This document shows, piece by piece, positions 1 to 45,156 of a stretch of DNA of 45,156 bases. The first letter of the stretch is position 1. Every line of letters starts with the position of its first letter. The DNA lies in IMG/VR virus record IMGVR_UViG_3300048592_000341, positions 1-45,156 of that record, one strand, 5' to 3'. The notes under the pieces were generated by a model, which saw only the letters and a list, made by a program, of their open reading frames with translations, was not told the origin of the DNA and did not search any database. A program made the translations under genes and the position numbers. Source of the DNA: a virus.

Positions 1-294
1 GCGGTCGGCGCACCAGTGCGCGAATTCCACCAGCAGCGGCCCGGCGTCCACGTAGGGTGTATGCTGCCGCGCCGCGGACGCGCACGCTTTGCCGTCGCCC
101 TTATGGATGATTCCGCACAGCTCGCGCAGGCAAACGCGAGTGCCGGAAGCGTAGCGCAGTGCGTCGGTGACGCGCTCGCTCCCGTGCCATCCCGACACGC
201 ACAACTCGGCGCGGCGCTTCGGCAAGTCGTCGCCCTGCTTGGGAAGCGGCGTCCCGTCGCGGAGGTTAGCGGCTGCGAAGTGAAACACGAGCAC
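1..294 (-). CDS. DUF7666-like alanine-repeat protein, N-terminal part (runs off left edge)
   Basis: Reads leftward from a GTG at 294, one base after the stop of the preceding gene, and leaves the window after about 98 codons. The visible part is nearly identical to the first ~98 residues of the protein at 43602-44297: it opens MLVFHFA and contains LRDGTPLPKQGDDLPKRR, SGWHGSERVTDALRYA and QHTPYVDAGPLLVEFAHWCA. This resembles the DUF7666-type domain I know from phage proteins that end in alanine-rich repeats; its function is unknown. Here residues 8-10 are AAN instead of DEV, and RELCG replaces RELRG. The alanine-repeat C-terminus is outside the window, and may be the partial gene at 44740-45156 if the genome is circular. 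Confidence 0.75.
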   Translation of the reverse strand, partial: MLVFHFAAANLRDGTPLPKQGDDLPKRRAELCVSGWHGSERVTDALRYASGTRVCLRELCGIIHKGDGKACASAARQHTPYVDAGPLLVEFAHWCADR

Positions 295-2809: not shown

Positions 2810-3108
2810 TCGGCGAGCAGCGCGCCGTTTTTGCCGTAAGTGTACGCGACAAAGCGCGCCACTACGGGGTCCGTGGGCGTCGCAGTAGACAAGCCGCTAA
2901 TGGTGGAAATAGTTACATAGCCCGACACGGTGCGCCCGCGCACGCGCACCGCGGCCGGGACGCTAAAGAACGTGTCCGCAGTCTGCGCGATGCGCGCGAG
3001 TGCGCGCACTTTGCCGTCCGAGCAGAGCACGCGCCCGCCGTGGTACAAGCCCCACGGCATCGACTGCTCCAAGCACGTTCCGTTGGCGTATCTGCGCGTC
3101 GTCTTCAT
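2806..3108 (-). CDS. Hypothetical protein, 100 aa
   Basis: Starts MKTTRRYANGTCLEQSMPWG after a strong AGGAGG. The predicted fold is beta-rich, with a central GRTVSGYVTISTISGLSTATP. No signature recognised. It shares its ribosome-binding leader with the downstream gene, which suggests copying of a leader module or equal expression of the two. Confidence 0.7.
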   Translation of the reverse strand: MKTTRRYANGTCLEQSMPWGLYHGGRVLCSDGKVRALARIAQTADTFFSVPAAVRVRGRTVSGYVTISTISGLSTATPTDPVVARFVAYTYGKNGALLAD

Positions 3109-3135
3109 GTTCGTGCCTCCTGTTCGTTGTCTCAG
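3106..3135. repeat. Duplicated translation leader, copy 2
   Basis: Second copy of the 30-base leader at 2780-2809, here with AGGAGG instead of AGGAG-A upstream of the ATG at 3108. Confidence 0.75.
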
Positions 3136-3183: not shown

Positions 3184-3384
3184 TCACGCTAGGCGCACGC
3201 CACCAACTGCGGCGAGCGCGCTGCGCGCGGCTAGCGAGCAATCCGCACGGTGCGCGATGCCGTAGCCTAAGGCGCAGATCATACGCGCGCGCAGTTTGGT
3301 GTCGGTGCGCTTGTTTGCCTCGACCGCGTAGTTTGTCAGGCGGCCGTTTTTGATATGCCTCGCGTATGCCACTGCGGTCTCCAT
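3184..3384 (-). CDS. First gene of the leftward arm, hypothetical 66 aa
   Basis: METAVAYARHIKNGRLTNYAVEANKRTDTKLRARMICAL... is basic and probably helical; no family recognised. The frame is open up to an ATG at 3435. I place the start at 3384 because the FNR-like box and -10 hexamer upstream predict transcription starting near 3400, which would exclude the earlier ATGs at 3435 and 3411. Neither choice has a strong ribosome site. If translation starts at 3435 the protein is 83 aa and the promoter reading is wrong. Confidence 0.55.
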   Translation of the reverse strand: METAVAYARHIKNGRLTNYAVEANKRTDTKLRARMICALGYGIAHRADCSLAARSALAAVGGVRLA

Positions 3385-3399
3385 TGGTGGCGTTGAATA

Positions 3400-3448
3400 T
3401 GGCGCCATCATAAAGGCGCAGGAATTCAAAAACATTGACCTAGATCAA
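3400..3448 (-). promoter_or_regulatory. FNR/ANR-type class II promoter facing left
   Basis: Read on the minus strand: TTGATCTAGGTCAA (3448-3435), 22 bases, then TATGAT (3412-3407), with an A seven bases on at 3400. The box matches TTGAT-N4-ATCAA at 9 of 10 positions, and the 22-base gap is what a class II FNR site centred at -41.5 requires. It is the only such box I noticed; whether it functions is inference. Confidence 0.5.
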
Positions 3449-3467
3449 GAAAACGGAACAAAAAGCA

Positions 3468-3734
3468 TCGGACAAGGGCCGTTTTTGTCCGACGCAATTA
3501 GTTGAGTGCAATCAACGCGTTGCAAAAATGCGTCGGACGCGCATCGGACAGGTCGCGAGTAGGGTTATTCACTTATCGGACAGCATCGGACACTTATCGG
3601 ACGCAAAGGGCTAATGCAATCAACAGGTTGCGGCGTGCGTCGGACAGCATCGGACGGGCGTCGGACACAAGCCCTATTCTGTCCGATGAAATGCGCAACC
3701 CTTAAGTTGCGCATTATCGGACAAGGGTCGGACC
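3468..3734. repeat. Array of 13 TCGGAC(A/G/C) elements, partly at 10-11 bp spacing
   Basis: TCGGAC-type sites start at 3468, 3533, 3544, 3576, 3586, 3597, 3640, 3650, 3661, 3717 and 3728, with inverted copies at 3486 and 3680. Within clusters the spacing is 10 or 11 bases: 3533/3544, 3576/3586/3597, 3640/3650/3661 and 3717/3728. Most are preceded by A or G (ATCGGACA or GTCGGACA). No gene fills this stretch. Position and phasing fit a multi-subunit DNA-binding site: an iteron origin, operator, centromere-like site, or the pac site of the adjacent terminase gene. Confidence 0.85.
3690..3715. repeat. Perfect 10-base inverted repeat in the control region
   Basis: AATGCGCAAC (3690-3699), six bases, then GTTGCGCATT (3706-3715). 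It sits between two TCGGACA elements. Related GTTGC...TCGGAC arrangements occur near 3520-3538 and 3627-3646, where TGCAATCAAC precedes GTTGC. A dimeric operator or origin element is likely. Confidence 0.7.
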
Positions 3735-3821
3735 GGAGCTATGGTGATGGGAAAGGATTTCGGGCGGAGGGCGTTCCGCGTACGGCGAATGACTCACGCG
3801 CGCGGCTGCTACACTGAGCAC

Positions 3822-4640
3822 ATGGCTGCAAAGCACCTGCCGCAACGCCCCTCCCCCTTGCCTTCAGTCCAATGGACGCCCGAGCAGCGTGGCGCCGCGA
3901 TGGCGCGCATCCTGGAAGGCGCCGCGGAGGGCGTGCCGGTCACGCATATCTGCGCGGCGGAGGGGATGCCCAACTTCGCGACTGTGTGCGAGTGGCGCGA
4001 ACGCTTCCCCGAGTTTGACAGGGCGTACCGCAAGGCGCGTGAATCTCTCGCGGAGCGCTTCGCGCAGGGCATCGCCGCGCTCGCCGACGAAGCGCGCGGC
4101 CTGGACAGCGCGGGAGTGCAGGCCGTGCGCCTGCAAGTGGACACGCGCAAGTGGATCGCCTCGCGCATCCTGCCCCACACCTACGGCGACCATGTGGAGG
4201 TCAAGCACTCGGGCGCGCTGTCCATCGTCGGCGCGAGCGCTGCGCTGCGCACGGTCCAGCCGCCCACGTTCGATGAGAACGGCAACGAGATTGAGGATGC
4301 GACGATCGTTGACGAAGTGCCCAGGGCATTGGGCGCGGAGCTTGCCGGAGTGAGCACTAACGGGGGAGGTGAGCACTCGCTAACTGCCTCGGATAGTGGG
4401 CACTCACCCCCACCCCCGGGGGGTGCCCCCGGCGAAGGGACTCCTACATCGGCACCGGCAGCCCTGAGCCCCGAGACTGGAATTCCAAAATTTCCTGCGG
4501 AAATTCCAGAACCTTTGACGAGTTTTCGACACGCCTTCGCCGAGACCCCCGCCGAGCGCGACGGGCGTCGCGCCCGCATGAAAGCCCGCCGCGAGAAGCG
4601 AGAGGCCAAGAAGCGCGCCGCCCTCGAGGCCCTGCTGTGA
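3822..4640 (+). CDS. Terminase small subunit
   Basis: TerS recognises phage DNA and feeds it to the large subunit. The product is 272 aa from ATG 3822. Residues ~25-65 form a helix-turn-helix domain (VTHICAAEGMPNFATVCEWR) of the kind common in TerS, followed by a helical oligomerisation region ending QVDTRKWIASRILPHTYGDH, typical of the family. The C-terminal half is a low-complexity Pro/Gly linker ending in a Lys/Arg-rich helix. Earlier ATGs at 3741 and 3747 are in frame, and 3747 has GGAG at good spacing; I prefer 3822 because family homology begins there. The gene directly follows the repeat array and precedes terL. Confidence 0.85.
   Translation: MAAKHLPQRPSPLPSVQWTPEQRGAAMARILEGAAEGVPVTHICAAEGMPNFATVCEWRERFPEFDRAYRKARESLAERFAQGIAALADEARGLDSAGVQAVRLQVDTRKWIASRILPHTYGDHVEVKHSGALSIVGASAALRTVQPPTFDENGNEIEDATIVDEVPRALGAELAGVSTNGGGEHSLTASDSGHSPPPPGGAPGEGTPTSAPAALSPETGIPKFPAEIPEPLTSFRHAFAETPAERDGRRARMKARREKREAKKRAALEALL
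4477..4509. other. AT-rich nested inverted repeat inside the TerS gene
   Basis: CTGGAATT (4477-4484) pairs with AATTCCAG (4502-4509); inside lies AATTTCC-TGC-GGAAATT as an alternative hairpin. It is an AT-rich island in very GC-rich DNA, in the linker part of the gene. Pac sites often lie in or near small-terminase genes, so this is a secondary candidate; the symmetry may be fortuitous. Confidence 0.4.
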
Positions 4641-4759
4641 GCATCCCGTTCCCCGCCCGCCTCGCCGGCCTCGCAGGTTGCGCGCGTGCGGTGCTGGAAT
4701 CCGGGCACCGCGTTGAGCTGCTGCCCGATCCCGATGGAAGGTTCCTGTTCCGGCTATGA
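4637..4759 (+). CDS. Tiny hypothetical protein between the terminase genes, 40 aa
   Basis: GTG start overlaps the TerS stop (GTGA, 4637-4640), and its TGA overlaps the TerL start (ATGA, 4756-4759). GAGG lies 7 bases before the GTG. The product begins MSIPFPARLAGLAGCARAVL and ends DPDGRFLFRL. The double overlap and good ribosome site argue for translation; if not functional in itself, it would still couple TerL translation to TerS. Confidence 0.55.
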   Translation: MSIPFPARLAGLAGCARAVLESGHRVELLPDPDGRFLFRL

Positions 4760-6222
4760 GCCACGACGACACCCTCGCCGAGTATCTGCCGCGCATCGCG
4801 CGCTGGCGCGAGCACGGCCCGGCGCTGTTCGCCGCGGAGGCGCTCGGCCTGCCGCCCAAGTGGGACGACGCGAAGAAAGAGGGCATCCGCAAGTGGTGGT
4901 GGCGGGCGTCGCACGGCTTGGTGACGAAGCGCAAGATCAGCGTGCGCTCGGGCCACGGCGCGCACAAGACGGGCTTCACCGCGGTGTCGATCCTGTGGTT
5001 CCTCATCTGCTACCACCCGTGCAAGATCCCCTGCACCGCGCCCTCGTCGCACCAGTTGCACGACGTGCTGTGGCCGGAGATCGCGAAGTGGCATCGCAGG
5101 TTGCGGGAACGGGTGCCGGCGCTCGCCGACGCGATCGAGTGGGGCAAGAACCGCGTCTACGTGAAAGAGGCCCCGGAGGAGGGGTTCGCGGTGCTCCGCA
5201 CCGCGCGCCCGGAGAAGCCCGAGGCGTTGCAGGGCTTCCACTCGGACAACCTGCTGTTCGTAGTCGACGAAGCCTCGGGCGTGGCCGAGCCCGTGTTCGA
5301 AGTCGCGCAGGGCGCGCTGCTCGGCAAAAACGCGTTCCTCATCCTCATCGGCAACCCGACTCGCACGCACGGCTTTTTCTACGAGTCCCACCACAAGGAC
5401 CGCGCCGCCTACACCACGATTCACGTGGACGTGGAGAAGGTGGAGGGCGCGAACGTCGCCGAGGTGGGGCGCCTCGCCGCGAAGTACGGCCGCGAGAGCA
5501 ACTACTTCCGCGTGCGCGTGCAGGGCGAATTCCCGCTCGGCGAGCTGGACACGCTGATCCCGCTGTACATCGCCGAGGAGGCGCAGGCGCGGTGGGGCGA
5601 GATCGAGGACGACGGGCAGATCGTGTGGGGCCTGGACCCCGCCGGGCAGGGCACCGACCGAAGCGTGCTGTTCAAGCGGAGCGGCACCCGGCAGTTGGAG
5701 CCGCACAAGGCGTGGCGCCAGCTCGAGGCGATGCAGGTGGTCGGCCGCGTGCACGAGGAGTGGCTGAACACCCCGCCCGATAAGCGGCCCGTCGCGATCT
5801 GCGTGGACGCGATCGGACTCGGAAGCGGGATCGCTTCCCGGCTTGCCGAGTTGAAGTTGCCAGTCGTGGCGGTGAACGTCTCCGAGCTGCCGGCGATGCG
5901 CGCCGAGTACCACCGCCTGCGCGATGAGCTATACTGGAAGGTGCGGGAATGGCTCATGGTCCGCAAGTCGGCGCTCCACCCGAGCGACGAGGAGGTTGTG
6001 GGCGAGCTGACGCTGCTGCATTGGAAGCCGCCGGAGTCCGACGGCAAGATTCGGATTGAGGCGAAGCACGAGGTGAAGAAGCGGCTGAAAACCGAGTCCT
6101 CGCCGGACGTGGCCGATGCCGTGATGCTCTCGTTCGCGCACTTTGCGCCGGTCGAGGGCGGCATCGTGGCGGGCAGCGCGCAACGCCCCGCGGACGGCGG
6201 GTTCATGGACGCAGCGGAGTGA
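4756..6222 (+). CDS. Terminase large subunit
   Basis: Packaging ATPase and headful nuclease, 488 aa (P22 gp2 is about 500). ATPase: Walker A at 65-72 reads SGHGAHKT, with His where the motif has Gly before the Lys; Walker B LLFVVDEA (~166-173); coupling motif GNPTR (199-203). Nuclease (RNase H fold): WGLDPAGQGTDRS with Asp294, ICVDAIGLGSG with Asp351, and SPDVADAVML with Asp451/454, the usual three acidic clusters. Start overlaps the stop of the tiny upstream gene. Family assignment is secure. Confidence 0.95.
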   Translation: MSHDDTLAEYLPRIARWREHGPALFAAEALGLPPKWDDAKKEGIRKWWWRASHGLVTKRKISVRSGHGAHKTGFTAVSILWFLICYHPCKIPCTAPSSHQLHDVLWPEIAKWHRRLRERVPALADAIEWGKNRVYVKEAPEEGFAVLRTARPEKPEALQGFHSDNLLFVVDEASGVAEPVFEVAQGALLGKNAFLILIGNPTRTHGFFYESHHKDRAAYTTIHVDVEKVEGANVAEVGRLAAKYGRESNYFRVRVQGEFPLGELDTLIPLYIAEEAQARWGEIEDDGQIVWGLDPAGQGTDRSVLFKRSGTRQLEPHKAWRQLEAMQVVGRVHEEWLNTPPDKRPVAICVDAIGLGSGIASRLAELKLPVVAVNVSELPAMRAEYHRLRDELYWKVREWLMVRKSALHPSDEEVVGELTLLHWKPPESDGKIRIEAKHEVKKRLKTESSPDVADAVMLSFAHFAPVEGGIVAGSAQRPADGGFMDAAE

Positions 6223-29195: not shown

Positions 29196-29320
29196 CACTT
29201 CCCCCGCTTCGCTGCGGCGGCCCGAATGCGGGCGCGCTGCGCCAGTTTCGTGCGCGCCGTCCGCGTCTGCTTGCGGCTCTTGCGCGATCCCAACTTCCGT
29301 CTCGCTTCTCTCGCTGTCAT
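29195..29320 (-). CDS. Highly basic 41-aa protein
   Basis: ATG at 29320 overlaps the prim-pol/helicase stop (ATGA), with GAGG upstream. MTAREARRKLGSRKSRKQTR, then TARTKLAQRARIRAAAAKRG: about 40% Lys/Arg, no acidic residue after position 5. Likely binds nucleic acid; it may accompany the helicase. Function unknown. Confidence 0.6.
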   Translation of the reverse strand: MTAREARRKLGSRKSRKQTRTARTKLAQRARIRAAAAKRGK

Positions 29321-31128
29321 TCGAGTTTCCTCTGGATGGTGCAGTCCTCGTTCACGACGATCAGCCCGGAGCGCACGAGGCGCTGCCGCACGTCGTACAT
29401 CGCCCCGCGGCGCTGCGGCAGGAATTCCTCGCACGCCTCTTTCCACTCGGCCTCGGTGACGGGGTCGTTCTGCGGCCGGATCTCGCACAGCACCTCCCAC
29501 GCACGCCGCACGTTGCCCTTGAGCCGGGCGGCGCGCGGGTCGTTCGCGCTCGGCGCTCCGCCGGGCATGACGACGCAGGACGTAATCTCGTCGCCGTCGG
29601 CGTCGAGCCCGAGCAGGACCGGATGCAGGCGGAACCCGATCGGGTCGCACGCCTCGAGATCCCGCTGCTTCGTCGGCGTGATGGCGCGGTCGGCCACCTC
29701 GATCTCGGTGTCAATCGCGCCGAGCAGCGCGGAGGAGCCCCGCGCGCCGTTCGCCTTGTTCTTGCCGCTGTGGTGGATCACGAGCACGCAGGCCCCGGAC
29801 GCCTCCACGAGCGCCCCGATGGCGTCGTTCAGGGCGCCCATGTCCTGCGCGCTGTTCTCGTCGCCGCCCTTCATGGCGCGGGCCAGGGTGTCCACGACGA
29901 TCAGCTTGGGCGTGGTGGGCAAGCCCGCGACCATCTCCGCGAGCGCCTTGCGCCCGGCCTGCTCCCGCAGGTTGTAGTCGGCGGCCTCGACGTAGAGCGG
30001 CACGTCCGCGTCGCCGTAGTGGCGTATCAGCGCCGCGGCCCGGCGCGCGATGCCGCCCATGCCCTCGAATGCGAGGTACAGCACGAGGCCCTCGGCTACC
30101 CGGCGCCCCTGCCATTCGCGGCCGGCGGCGACGTGGTAGGCCATGTCGAGCGCCACGAACGTCTTGCCCTCGCCCGGCGCCCCGTACAGGACGGCGTGGC
30201 TGCGCTGCTGGAGCAGGCCCTTGATGAGGTAGGGGGCGCCCTCGGTCGCCGTCTGCGCGAGCGCGGCGAGGCGCTGCGGCCCTGCGCGCGGGCGGCGCGG
30301 CGGGGCCGGGGGCACGTCAACCGTCGGGAAGTCGTCGGCCGAGATCGCTAGCTTGCCGGGCTCGGCCGTCTGCGCGTAGCGGAAGGCGTTGGTCGCGCGC
30401 AGATGGGCCTCCGCCTCGGGCCACACGCCCGCGGGCGCCTCGCCGGACATGAGCAGCTCGGCTACCTGCGGCGCGGACAGCCCGCGGTCCCTGAGCCCGC
30501 AGGCGAGGCCGTAGCCCCCGGCGTCGGGCGGGGTGCCCCGGAGCCACTCGAGTGCCCGCTGGTAGGTCTCCGGCGGCGCATCGGGCACGTTCACAACCGC
30601 CGGGCGTTCACGTTCCGTGAACACGCCGCAGCGCTGAACGAGCCACTCCGGGGCCGGCGCGATCGTGTCGATTCCGGGGGCGAAAACGTACTCGCCGGCC
30701 GGGACTGTCGATCCTGGCGCCACGACGTAGCCGTTCGTGCTGCGGATGTCGATGCCCGGCGCCACGCGCCCGGCGCTATTCTGCACGCCGGGGTGCCCGT
30801 CGGGCAGGCGGTAGAACAGGTGGCGGCCGCCGGTCGGCGTGGCGGTCGTGAGCGTGTCTGGGAAGCCCTCGATCATGTCGAGCCGCGCGAACGAGGCATC
30901 GCCGCTGTTCTTCACGTCCACGTCCACGACGAGGAGCCCGGCGCAGTGAATCCCGATGTTGGCGTCGGGGTTCAGCGACCAGCGGTGCCGGATAACGCCT
31001 TCGTCCAGCGTGGCCCCGTCATCGCGCTGCCAACCTACCAGCAGCGGCGGCGCTTTGGCGCCGGCCGCGATCGGGAACACCTTGAACCCTCGCGCGGCGA
31101 GGGCGAGTGCGGATTCCAGCTTACTCAT
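29317..31128 (-). CDS. Bifunctional primase/polymerase - RepA-like helicase
   Basis: 603 aa. Residues ~1-170 are a prim-pol domain: FKVFPIAAGAKAPPL, then LLVVDVDVKNSG (metal-binding Asp near 65-67) and TGGRHLFYRL (His near 100). From ~300 is a hexameric RepA/DnaB-like ATPase (AAA_25): LYGAPGEGKTFVALDMAYHV (Walker A ~314-322), LIVVDTLARAMKGGDENSAQ (Walker B ~406) and VLVIHHSGKN (sensor). A winged-helix-like C-terminus follows. It would prime and unwind DNA at the fork for the family A polymerase encoded next door. Confidence 0.9.
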   Translation of the reverse strand: MSKLESALALAARGFKVFPIAAGAKAPPLLVGWQRDDGATLDEGVIRHRWSLNPDANIGIHCAGLLVVDVDVKNSGDASFARLDMIEGFPDTLTTATPTGGRHLFYRLPDGHPGVQNSAGRVAPGIDIRSTNGYVVAPGSTVPAGEYVFAPGIDTIAPAPEWLVQRCGVFTERERPAVVNVPDAPPETYQRALEWLRGTPPDAGGYGLACGLRDRGLSAPQVAELLMSGEAPAGVWPEAEAHLRATNAFRYAQTAEPGKLAISADDFPTVDVPPAPPRRPRAGPQRLAALAQTATEGAPYLIKGLLQQRSHAVLYGAPGEGKTFVALDMAYHVAAGREWQGRRVAEGLVLYLAFEGMGGIARRAAALIRHYGDADVPLYVEAADYNLREQAGRKALAEMVAGLPTTPKLIVVDTLARAMKGGDENSAQDMGALNDAIGALVEASGACVLVIHHSGKNKANGARGSSALLGAIDTEIEVADRAITPTKQRDLEACDPIGFRLHPVLLGLDADGDEITSCVVMPGGAPSANDPRAARLKGNVRRAWEVLCEIRPQNDPVTEAEWKEACEEFLPQRRGAMYDVRQRLVRSGLIVVNEDCTIQRKLE

Positions 31129-43598: not shown

Positions 43599-43601
43599 GG
43601 T

Positions 43602-44297
43602 CTACACTCCCAAAAGTTGACGGATTCTCGGCGCAAGCCAATCCTCCTGCACTTGTCTTTCGGCGTCGGCGCGGGCGGCGGCGTCGACGGCGTCGACGGC
43701 GTGGACGGCGGCGGCGCGGGCGGCGTAGGCGGCGGCGTCGACGGCGTCGGCGGCGGAGTAGGCGGCGGCGTCGACGGCGTAGGCGGCGGCGTCGACGGCG
43801 CGGTCGGCGCGGGCGGCGTAGGCGGCGGCGTCGACGGCGTCGGCGGCGGCGTGGACGGCGGCGGCGGCGGCGCGGGCGGCGGCGTCGACGGCGGCGCGGG
43901 CGGCGTAGGCGCGGTCGGCGTAGGCGGCGCGGTCGGCGTAGGCGGCGCGGGCGGCGCGGGCGGCGGCGGCGCGGGCGGCGGCGGCGCGGGCGGCGTCGAC
44001 GGCGCGGGCGGCGCACCAGTGCGCGAATTCCACCAGCAGCGGCCCGGCGTCCACGTAGGGTGTATGCTGCCGCGCCGCGGACGCGCACGCTTTGCCGTCG
44101 CCCTTATGGATGATTCCGCGCAGTTCGCGCAGGCAAACGCGAGTGCCGGGAGCGTAGCGCAGTGCGTCGGTGACGCGCTCGCTCCCGTGCCATCCCGACA
44201 CGCACAACTCGGCGCGGCGCTTCGGCAAGTCGTCGCCCTGCTTGGGAAGCGGCGTCCCGTCGCGCAGGACCTCATCGGCGAAGTGAAACACGAGCAT
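43602..44297 (-). CDS. DUF7666-like protein with alanine-rich repeat C-terminus
   Basis: 231 aa from ATG 44297 (GGAGGG upstream). Residues 1-96 are the DUF7666-type domain (SGWHGSERVTDALRYAPGTR, RELRGIIHKGDGKACASAAR, GPLLVEFAHWCA). Residues ~97-211 use almost only A, D, V, R, Y and H, in units like AVDAAAY, AADAVDAAAYA and AARAAYADRA, with 4/7/11-residue spacing: a long alanine-rich helix. It ends RQVQEDWLAPRIRQLLGV. Similar repeat proteins occur in other phages and bacteria, without known function. The DNA repeat is open in other frames too. Confidence 0.8.
   Translation of the reverse strand: MLVFHFADEVLRDGTPLPKQGDDLPKRRAELCVSGWHGSERVTDALRYAPGTRVCLRELRGIIHKGDGKACASAARQHTPYVDAGPLLVEFAHWCAARAVDAARAAAARAAAARAARAAYADRAAYADRAYAARAAVDAAARAAAAAVHAAADAVDAAAYAARADRAVDAAAYAVDAAAYSAADAVDAAAYAARAAAVHAVDAVDAAARADAERQVQEDWLAPRIRQLLGV
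43606..43675. repeat. Tandem gene duplication: shared 3' end, copy B
   Basis: About 70 bases, from TACACTCCCAAAAGTTGACG through the last codons of the alanine-repeat gene, repeated at about 44740-44809 with only a few differences. The shared block covers the stop codon and the leader of the following gene (CTTTTGGGAGTGTAGA + ATG). Confidence 0.8.
43660..44010. repeat. GC-rich low-complexity repeat (alanine-repeat coding), copy B
   Basis: About 350 bases made of GGCGGCG, GTCGACGGCG, GTAGGCGGCG and similar units in multiples of three. It encodes the alanine-rich helix on the minus strand. Near-exact repeats within it should allow in-frame length change. Confidence 0.85.
44009..44135. repeat. 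127-base segment identical to the right end of the window
   Basis: Bases 44009-44135 are identical to 45030-45156, the last 127 bases of the window; the base before each differs (g versus t). The block encodes the middle of the DUF7666-type domain. Confidence 0.9.
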
Positions 44298-44300
44298 GGG

Positions 44301-44531
44301 CTATCCCTCCAGTGGCATGACGACTTCGGCGTAACACTCGCCGAGTGCGTGATTGCGTTGTTCGTAGCGCAGCACCGCTCCGGGGTTCGCTTGCAGCGTC
44401 ATCGCTACTAGAGCATCGACTTCCGCGAGCGGCCCGCGGATGCACCGCAGGTCGCGCAGCTTGCCGGCTACCGGCACGCGTTGCCGATAGTCGGCTATGC
44501 GCGCGGATTTGGGCTCGGTGCCGTACGTCAT
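44301..44531 (-). CDS. Small hypothetical protein, 76 aa
   Basis: MTYGTEPKSARIADYRQRVP, then RDLRCIRGPLAEVDALVAMT and LRYEQRNHALGECYAEVVMP. Starts in an ATGA overlap with the upstream gene. Alpha/beta pattern, two Cys, no family recognised. It separates the two alanine-repeat genes together with the next small gene. Confidence 0.65.
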   Translation of the reverse strand: MTYGTEPKSARIADYRQRVPVAGKLRDLRCIRGPLAEVDALVAMTLQANPGAVLRYEQRNHALGECYAEVVMPLEG

Positions 44532-44737
44532 CGTCCGCACTTCCAGCGGCGCCGCGTTGACGCGGGCGCGGCGTTGTACCCGTGGCGCCAGAGTTGCAGC
44601 GCGGACTCCGCGAGCGAGACATAGTGCGCCCGCAGGCTCGGCTCGCGCGACATGCCCGCGCGGGCGAGATCGTTGCGCGCGACGTTGAGCTGGTGCATCA
44701 ACGTGGCGTGTCGGCTCTGATGTTGGTTTCCCCACAT
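44528..44737 (-). CDS. Small hypothetical protein, 69 aa
   Basis: MWGNQHQSRHATLMHQLNVA, then RNDLARAGMSREPSLRAHYV and SLAESALQLWRHGYNAAPAS, ending RRRWKCGR. Helical and basic. GGGAG in the same CTTTTGGGAGTGTAGA leader that precedes the gene at 43146-43598, because the leader was duplicated with the alanine-repeat gene. Confidence 0.65.
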   Translation of the reverse strand: MWGNQHQSRHATLMHQLNVARNDLARAGMSREPSLRAHYVSLAESALQLWRHGYNAAPASTRRRWKCGR

Positions 44738-44739
44738 GT

Positions 44740-44809
44740 CTACACTCCCAAAAGTTGACGGACTCTCTGTGCAAGCCAATCCTCCTGCACTTGTCTTTCG
44801 GCGTCGGCG
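44740..44809. repeat. Tandem gene duplication: shared 3' end, copy C
   Basis: Partner of 43606-43675. Differences include CTCTCTGTGCAAGCC for TTCTCGGCGCAAGCC (protein AQRV versus APRI). Confidence 0.8.
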
Positions 44810-45156
44810 GCGGCGCGGGCGGCGGCGTCGGCGGCGTCGACGGCGTGGACGGCGTAGGCGGCGCGGGCGGCGTAGGCGGCGGCGTCGGCGGCGGCGTAGG
44901 CGGCGGCGTCGACGGCGTGGACGGCGTAGGCGGCGTCGGCGGCGGCGTAGGCGGCGGCGGCGTAGGCGGCGGCGGCGTCGACGGCGTGGACGGCGGCGGC
45001 GGCGGCGCGGGCGGCGTCGACGGCGCGGTCGGCGCACCAGTGCGCGAATTCCACCAGCAGCGGCCCGGCGTCCACGTAGGGTGTATGCTGCCGCGCCGCG
45101 GACGCGCACGCTTTGCCGTCGCCCTTATGGATGATTCCGCGCAGTTCGCGCAGGCA
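44740..45156 (-). CDS. Second DUF7666-like alanine-repeat protein, C-terminal part (runs off right edge)
   Basis: Reads leftward from the window end. The visible part includes VDAGPLLVEFAHWCADRAVD, then alanine repeats (AAYAVHAVDAAAYAAADAAA), ending ERQVQEDWLAQRVRQLLGV. It is a close paralogue of the gene at 43602-44297, with a shorter repeat. It may be the same gene as the N-terminal fragment at 1-294: both have CADRAVDAA/CADR and a t where the other copy has g. No start within the window. Confidence 0.75.
   Translation of the reverse strand, partial: CLRELRGIIHKGDGKACASAARQHTPYVDAGPLLVEFAHWCADRAVDAARAAAAAVHAVDAAAAYAAAAYAAADAAYAVHAVDAAAYAAADAAAYAARAAYAVHAVDAADAAARAAADAERQVQEDWLAQRVRQLLGV
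44810..45030. repeat. GC-rich low-complexity repeat (alanine-repeat coding), copy C
   Basis: About 220 bases of the same GTCGACGGCG / GTAGGCGGCG units as copy B, in a different order and shorter by about 130 bases. It keeps the minus-strand frame open. Confidence 0.85.
45030..45156. repeat. Terminal 127 bases, identical to 44009-44135; near-overlap with bases 1-132
   Basis: Exact 127-base match to 44009-44135. Bases 45025-45140 also match 1-116 exactly. Over 132 bases the two window ends differ only at positions 117 (a/g) and 121 (c/t). Confidence 0.9.

Follow-up and report, generated by a model that had tools for sequence, protein, structure and literature searches.

What is the role of an array of short repeats that lies between the divergent gene blocks of a phage, directly upstream of the gene for the small terminase subunit (terS)? 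We analysed the whole stretch of DNA, which is 45,156 bases long and is here called the window. From 3741, the rightward genes encode TerS, TerL, portal and capsid. The leftward genes encode a PrimPol/RepA-type helicase, DNA polymerase A, an Enc34-like ssDNA-binding protein, an exonuclease, an SNF2-type helicase and endonuclease VII proteins. The genes that matter for the question are:

3184–3435, minus strand: first leftward open frame past the divergence point (83 aa), weakly supported as a gene
3741–4640, plus strand: TerS, small terminase subunit (phrog_1482, 3.5e-29), with alternative starts at 3747 or 3822
4756–6222, plus strand: TerL, large terminase subunit (phrog_2, 5.7e-40)
29317–31128, minus strand: PrimPol and RepA-type helicase with a C-terminal winged helix (residues about 531–600), the proposed binder of the array

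The two ends of the window (1–132 and 45025–45156) are 98.5% identical and lie within an alanine-rich repeat tract; the contig probably breaks inside this repeat. Judging from the sequence, the genome may thus be circular or nearly complete, and the array would then lie at the only divergence point between early and late genes. The alanine-rich repeat-coding tract covers 1–293 and 43600–45156, and 1–293 matches 44004–44296 at 96%. Several endonuclease VII-type proteins are encoded in this one genome (28364–29035, 34818–35156, 36809–37231 and 41756–42586), the last of which also matches a nucleoside deoxyribosyltransferase family in its second half. Furthermore, a leader of 31 bp with a ribosome-binding site is duplicated (2779–2809 and 3105–3135, 97% identical), and its copies precede two early leftward genes.

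The array was characterized by a site search, its chance expectation and a phase test. It contains TCGGAC 13 times, with 11 copies in forward and 2 in reverse orientation, and all elements that the first-pass annotation had reported within 267 bases were recovered:

3468–3733, plus strand: iteron-like array of 13 TCGGAC copies, the first forward site starting at 3468
3487–3492, minus strand: reverse site, inverted partner of the site at 3468
3533–3549, plus strand: cluster 1, sites at 3533 and 3544, 11 bp apart
3576–3602, plus strand: cluster 2, sites at 3576, 3586 and 3597, 10 and 11 bp apart
3640–3666, plus strand: cluster 3, sites at 3640, 3650 and 3661, 10 and 11 bp apart
3681–3686, minus strand: reverse site that forms the left arm of a hairpin
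3717–3733, plus strand: cluster 4, sites at 3717 and 3728, 11 bp apart

In the whole window, TCGGAC occurs as often as expected by chance (39 observed, 38.6 expected), and the excess is thus confined to the cluster at 3468–3733. Per 267 bp, 0.23 copies are expected, and the Poisson probability of at least 13 copies is about 6e-19. The spacing of 10 or 11 bp within the four clusters, and with it the placement of the sites on the same helix face, agrees with the first description: the forward sites lie in one helical phase (R = 0.90 near a period of 10.8 bp), and this coherence was unmatched by up to 20,000 random placements. The array therefore has the phased short repeats, well above chance, that are looked for in an iteron-type origin. 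The inverted pair 3468/3485, TCGGACAA...TTGTCCGA, is present as well. Two details had to be revised. The inverted copies, which had been placed at the flanks of the set, are its second and eleventh members and lie inside the array. The repeat unit had been given as TCGGACA; its core TCGGAC is invariant in all 13 sites and is preceded by A or G, whereas the final A is found in 9 of the 13 sites and is missing from 4.

Three further kinds of element, none of which the first-pass annotation had described, occur in the same region:

3411–3510: the 100 bp of lowest GC content in the window (43%, compared to about 67% overall), a candidate unwinding element
3510–3522, plus strand: IHF consensus AATCAACGCGTTG, the first of only two in the window
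3618–3630, plus strand: IHF consensus AATCAACAGGTTG, the second of the two
3680–3723: hairpin of 18 pairs, with an inverted repeat (3690–3699/3706–3715) flanked by inverted TCGGAC copies

The perfect IHF consensus WATCAANNNNTTR has only two matches among the 45,156 bases, where 0.05 are expected, and both are located in the array. Each lies within a duplicated element of 17 bp (3507/3615) that precedes a TCGGAC cluster. The core of the hairpin consists of 10-bp arms and a 6-bp loop, enclosed by the reverse site at 3681 and the forward site at 3717. Its predicted DNA fold has an energy of −18.9 kcal/mol (z = −7.8), and a perfect stem of this length is found in 0.5% of random 300-bp pieces of the window. 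Thus, a stem-loop as in pRN1-type replicons is found in the putative origin region. When the combination of IHF and TCGGAC sites was searched elsewhere, at least 120 stretches fitted the pattern, and among the matches listed none had more than three TCGGAC copies per 300 bp.

To what extent does the motif itself inform about function? Scanning IMG/VR for three phased TCGGAC copies yielded at least 119 stretches in 50 groups, and a control scan with the reversed hexamer yielded 52 stretches in 37 groups. The control loci, too, include replication-initiator genes. We thus reject TCGGAC as a universal motif, and the fact that two genomes share it is in itself little proof; phased hexamers of any word are often found at the replication genes of phages. 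In several loci (the L021/L172/L074 group, L063, L082 and L178), the TCGGAC array is found where a gene for a PrimPol and/or a RepA-type helicase has its 3′ end, and in L172/L074, L063, L082 and L178 TCGGACA itself is the helicase-adjacent motif. The window encodes a homologue of this helicase. Furthermore, L172/L074 share with the window a TerL of 41–45% identity and a PDDEXK-like protein of 109 aa. As these loci had been selected by the motif, they cannot serve as a test. The scan also revealed 47 prophage loci (the L085 group), as well as L019 and L016, where a TCGGAC triple lies near a gene for a lambda-type integrase (Arm-DNA-bind_1); these triples are possibly arm-type sites.

Relatives of the window were gathered by protein similarity alone, 80 loci via TerL and 80 via the helicase, and each locus was searched for its strongest hexamer cluster, whatever the sequence of the hexamer. 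The helicase relatives were dereplicated at 70% helicase identity into 19 lineages. A cluster was considered adjacent if it fell within −150 to +500 of the helicase stop codon, and a lineage was counted if any of its members qualified. Of the 19 lineages, 14 have their top cluster at the helicase stop, one has it elsewhere, and four have no significant cluster. The adjacency interval covers 8% of the sequence, which gives a binomial p of about 6e-15 that is only approximate since the lineages share ancestry. In the parallel test at the TerL stop, none of the 26 loci that have a cluster had it there. Annotated phage records with this helicase show the same arrangement: the array is located directly downstream in seven out of ten (Rhizobium RHph_X2_25, Roseobacter CRP-831 and CRP-406, Idiomarinaceae 1N2-2, Alteromonas XX1924, Salicola CGphi29 and Caudoviricetes ct3Oc712) and is absent from Caulobacter GB2A, Mycobacterium Dove and ct76p945.

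The repeated word differs between lineages and includes TCGGACA, TCAGACA, TGAACA, GGGACA, GGTACA, ATCACA, CAAATG, AACATT, TATGAA and GTAGAC, among others. The layout recurs, with repeats often 8–11 bp apart, short clusters and both orientations. Hairpins enclosed by inverted copies are common, and an unusually long stem was detected in 12 of the 26 arrays tested. A motif that varies by lineage at a fixed position and layout is expected if the site co-evolves with the neighbouring DNA-binding domain, and SaPI and pRN1 replicons show the same pattern. Two other observations concern these relatives. In many of them (L298, L300, L313, L326, L339, L357 and L410), the array is immediately followed by the start of a conserved gene, whose product has about 200 aa and a KWG motif, and we found no convincing homologue of it in the window. 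Two marine, helicase-bearing loci (L385:1780 and L387:907) have three phased CGGACA copies away from the helicase gene.

In the window itself, the 3′ flank of the helicase gene, which ends at 29317, contains no array; the array lies at 3.5 kb, about 17–19 kb from the gene around the circle. The nearest helicase relative, L362 (51% identity), has no array anywhere in its 17.8-kb fragment. As the helicase flank is array-less in both genomes, and the next gene in both is a small one that appears zinc-ribbon-like by eye, the detachment of the array may be a property of the lineage to which the window belongs.

The helicase has the domains that its proposed role would require. Its N-terminus matches the PrimPol domain (Pfam Prim-Pol, 7e-39) and aligns in profile comparison with chains of the pRN1 PrimPol ORF904 (E 5e-4), so that the ORF904-related PrimPol domain of pRN1-type replicons is present. 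The SF3 helicase domain of such replicons is absent from this protein, which has a RepA/RecA fold: an AlphaFold2 model (mean pLDDT 78.5) resembles RepA of the plasmid RSF1010 (1g8y) with Z 24.0 and 2.1 Å over 204 residues. When the last 74 residues were modelled alone, a winged helix was predicted (pLDDT 93), with the winged-helix domains of ORC as the best structural matches (Z 9.7). The models thus give the helicase a predicted C-terminal DNA-binding domain, as is looked for in the initiator of an iteron-type origin. Winged helices are common, and the fold therefore supports DNA binding and not specificity.

Taken together, the array is probably an iteron-type replication origin for the phage's own PrimPol/RepA-type helicase. 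We infer the following order of events. The C-terminal winged helix of the helicase would bind the TCGGACA sites and form an oligomer on one helix face, and IHF would bend the DNA at the two sites between the clusters. Melting would begin in the AT-rich stretch at 3411–3510 and/or at the hairpin, the hexameric helicase would be loaded, and its own PrimPol domain would prime. The window would be an unusual variant, in which the origin has been separated from the helicase gene, has IHF sites and now lies between two divergent gene blocks. Given the distance between the array and the helicase gene, the link between the two is drawn from the motif and from exclusion and not from adjacency. Several observations weigh against an origin: the missing array in L362, the four lineages and three annotated records that are negative, and two properties of the window. 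Its GC skew, by which the first-pass annotation had proposed to recognize an origin, is weak with no clear turn and gives no support. Furthermore, the window contains no cluster of DnaA boxes; one TTATTCACT with a mismatch is present, and the total is below chance. We thus reject a DnaA-type origin in the window. Clusters of DnaA boxes, with three to five perfect copies each, do occur in L172 (2588–2834), L188, L170 and L226 and in 11 of 80 TerL relatives, where they lie between the two terminase genes or immediately upstream of terL. These are a possible second candidate, a DnaA-dependent origin in those phages, and they call for caution with the claim of a helicase-specific iteron origin.

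An alternative is that the array is a multi-site operator. In this case, a phage regulator would span the divergent region and select either the early leftward or the late rightward genes for expression, and IHF would be its architectural partner. The array occupies the divergent region up to 8 bp before the ATG of terS, and IHF sites and phased repeats would suit a large regulatory complex as well. However, no regulator was recognized among 28 open frames of the window, mostly small ones, and the promoter-like sequence that best suits the early genes (3173–3145) lies outside the array. In the relatives, moreover, arrays follow the helicase gene and not a divergent promoter. We therefore regard an operator as unlikely. 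A ribbon-helix-helix protein at 41.2 kb was considered as a binder and was rejected, as the match falls in a spurious frame.

The first-pass annotation had favoured a packaging site or an operator because of the location upstream of terS. IHF sites are known from lambda cosB. As a pac or cosB-like site, the array would have its phased repeats bound by TerS beside the gene for this protein, and both the position and the two IHF sites would fit. The relatives, however, do not support this preference. L284, whose TerL is 66% identical and whose TerS is homologous (34%), has no array upstream of terS, and a TCGGAC array was found in none of the 80 TerL relatives. Five TerS-bearing relatives do have a cluster, but it is located at the helicase stop, at a distance of 1.3–2.2 kb from terS, and this speaks against a pac site. 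Conservation of the array beside terS in phages with a homologous TerS was thus not observed, and an association with TerL or TerS is rejected since the clusters track the helicase instead. A packaging site is accordingly improbable, even more so than an operator. What remains of the earlier proposal is the more general idea that an oligomeric protein is loaded here, for which iteron origins had also been listed.

It is very improbable that the array has no special function and arose by chance or as a relic of repeat expansion. The control hexamer also gives phased triples, but chance would have to explain 13 sites where 0.23 are expected, their phase coherence, two IHF sites and a hairpin of 18 bp in the same 270 bp, and the control arrays themselves include replication-initiator genes. 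Least probable of all is a partition centromere or a set of recombination arm sites: phased repeats of 10–11 bp do occur in plasmid parC centromeres and TCGGAC triples lie close to integrase genes in prophages, but the window has no match to a ParA-type ATPase (AAA_31, PF13614) or to a tyrosine integrase (PF00589).

A more general proposal can be made, which we put forward tentatively and hold to be somewhat less well founded than the origin itself. PrimPol/RepA-type helicases with their own winged helix may define a class of phage replicons that is widespread and has apparently not been described. In these replicons, the helicase would recognize a lineage-specific array of 6–8-bp repeats with a hairpin, normally at the stop codon of its own gene. 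In the lineage of the window, the origin would have moved beside the terminase genes and would be assisted by IHF, possibly coupling its firing to late transcription or packaging. Most phages with such helicases, whether environmental or cultured, appear to have no annotated origin. From the rule that a lineage's own repeat array lies at the helicase stop codon, origins would be predicted in many genomes, including those of the cultured phages CRP-831, CRP-406, 1N2-2, XX1924, CGphi29 and RHph_X2_25. Furthermore, the drift of the motif at a fixed position provides a natural data set for changes in the DNA specificity of winged helices. If our reading of the window is true, an origin of this kind and the gene for its initiator need not stay together.

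The proposed origin resembles several known systems. The alpha protein of phage P4 combines primase, helicase and winged helix and binds short iterons (ori/crr), some of them away from its gene; it differs from the helicase of the window by a DnaG-type primase, an SF3 helicase and a different motif. SaPI Rep and SCCmec Cch2 use their C-terminal domain to recognize repeats that lie downstream of their own genes (PMC7581432 and the studies that it cites). As in the array-bearing relatives, the helicase gene is directly followed by short repeats, whereas these helicases belong to other families and have no PrimPol fusion. The window differs further by the detached array and the IHF sites. In pRN1, an essential stem-loop lies 54 bp downstream of orf904 and still works when moved (PMC4234260), which makes a displaced origin plausible. 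ORF904, like the helicase of the window, combines PrimPol, helicase and winged helix, and both systems have a stem-loop; ORF904 has an SF3 helicase and its stem-loop is essential, whereas the window has a RepA-type (RecA-fold) helicase and phased repeat arrays. The same authors propose this arrangement for some phages, and they judged the repeats of phage BIP-1 not to be the origin (PMC4234260). RSF1010 (IncQ), whose RepA is the closest solved helicase fold, has an oriV with iterons and with hairpins (ssiA, ssiB) for priming, as outlined in the same source (PMC4234260). Its proteins RepA, RepB′ and RepC include a separate iteron binder, RepC, whereas the helicase of the window has winged helix and PrimPol in the same polypeptide. 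A search of the open-access literature, with subscription journals mostly outside its scope, found no description of the helicase-adjacent arrays. Judged from sequence comparison, the array would thus belong to a known kind, the iteron origins recognized by their own helicase, and what appears to be new is the variant in the window and the general rule for this group of phages.
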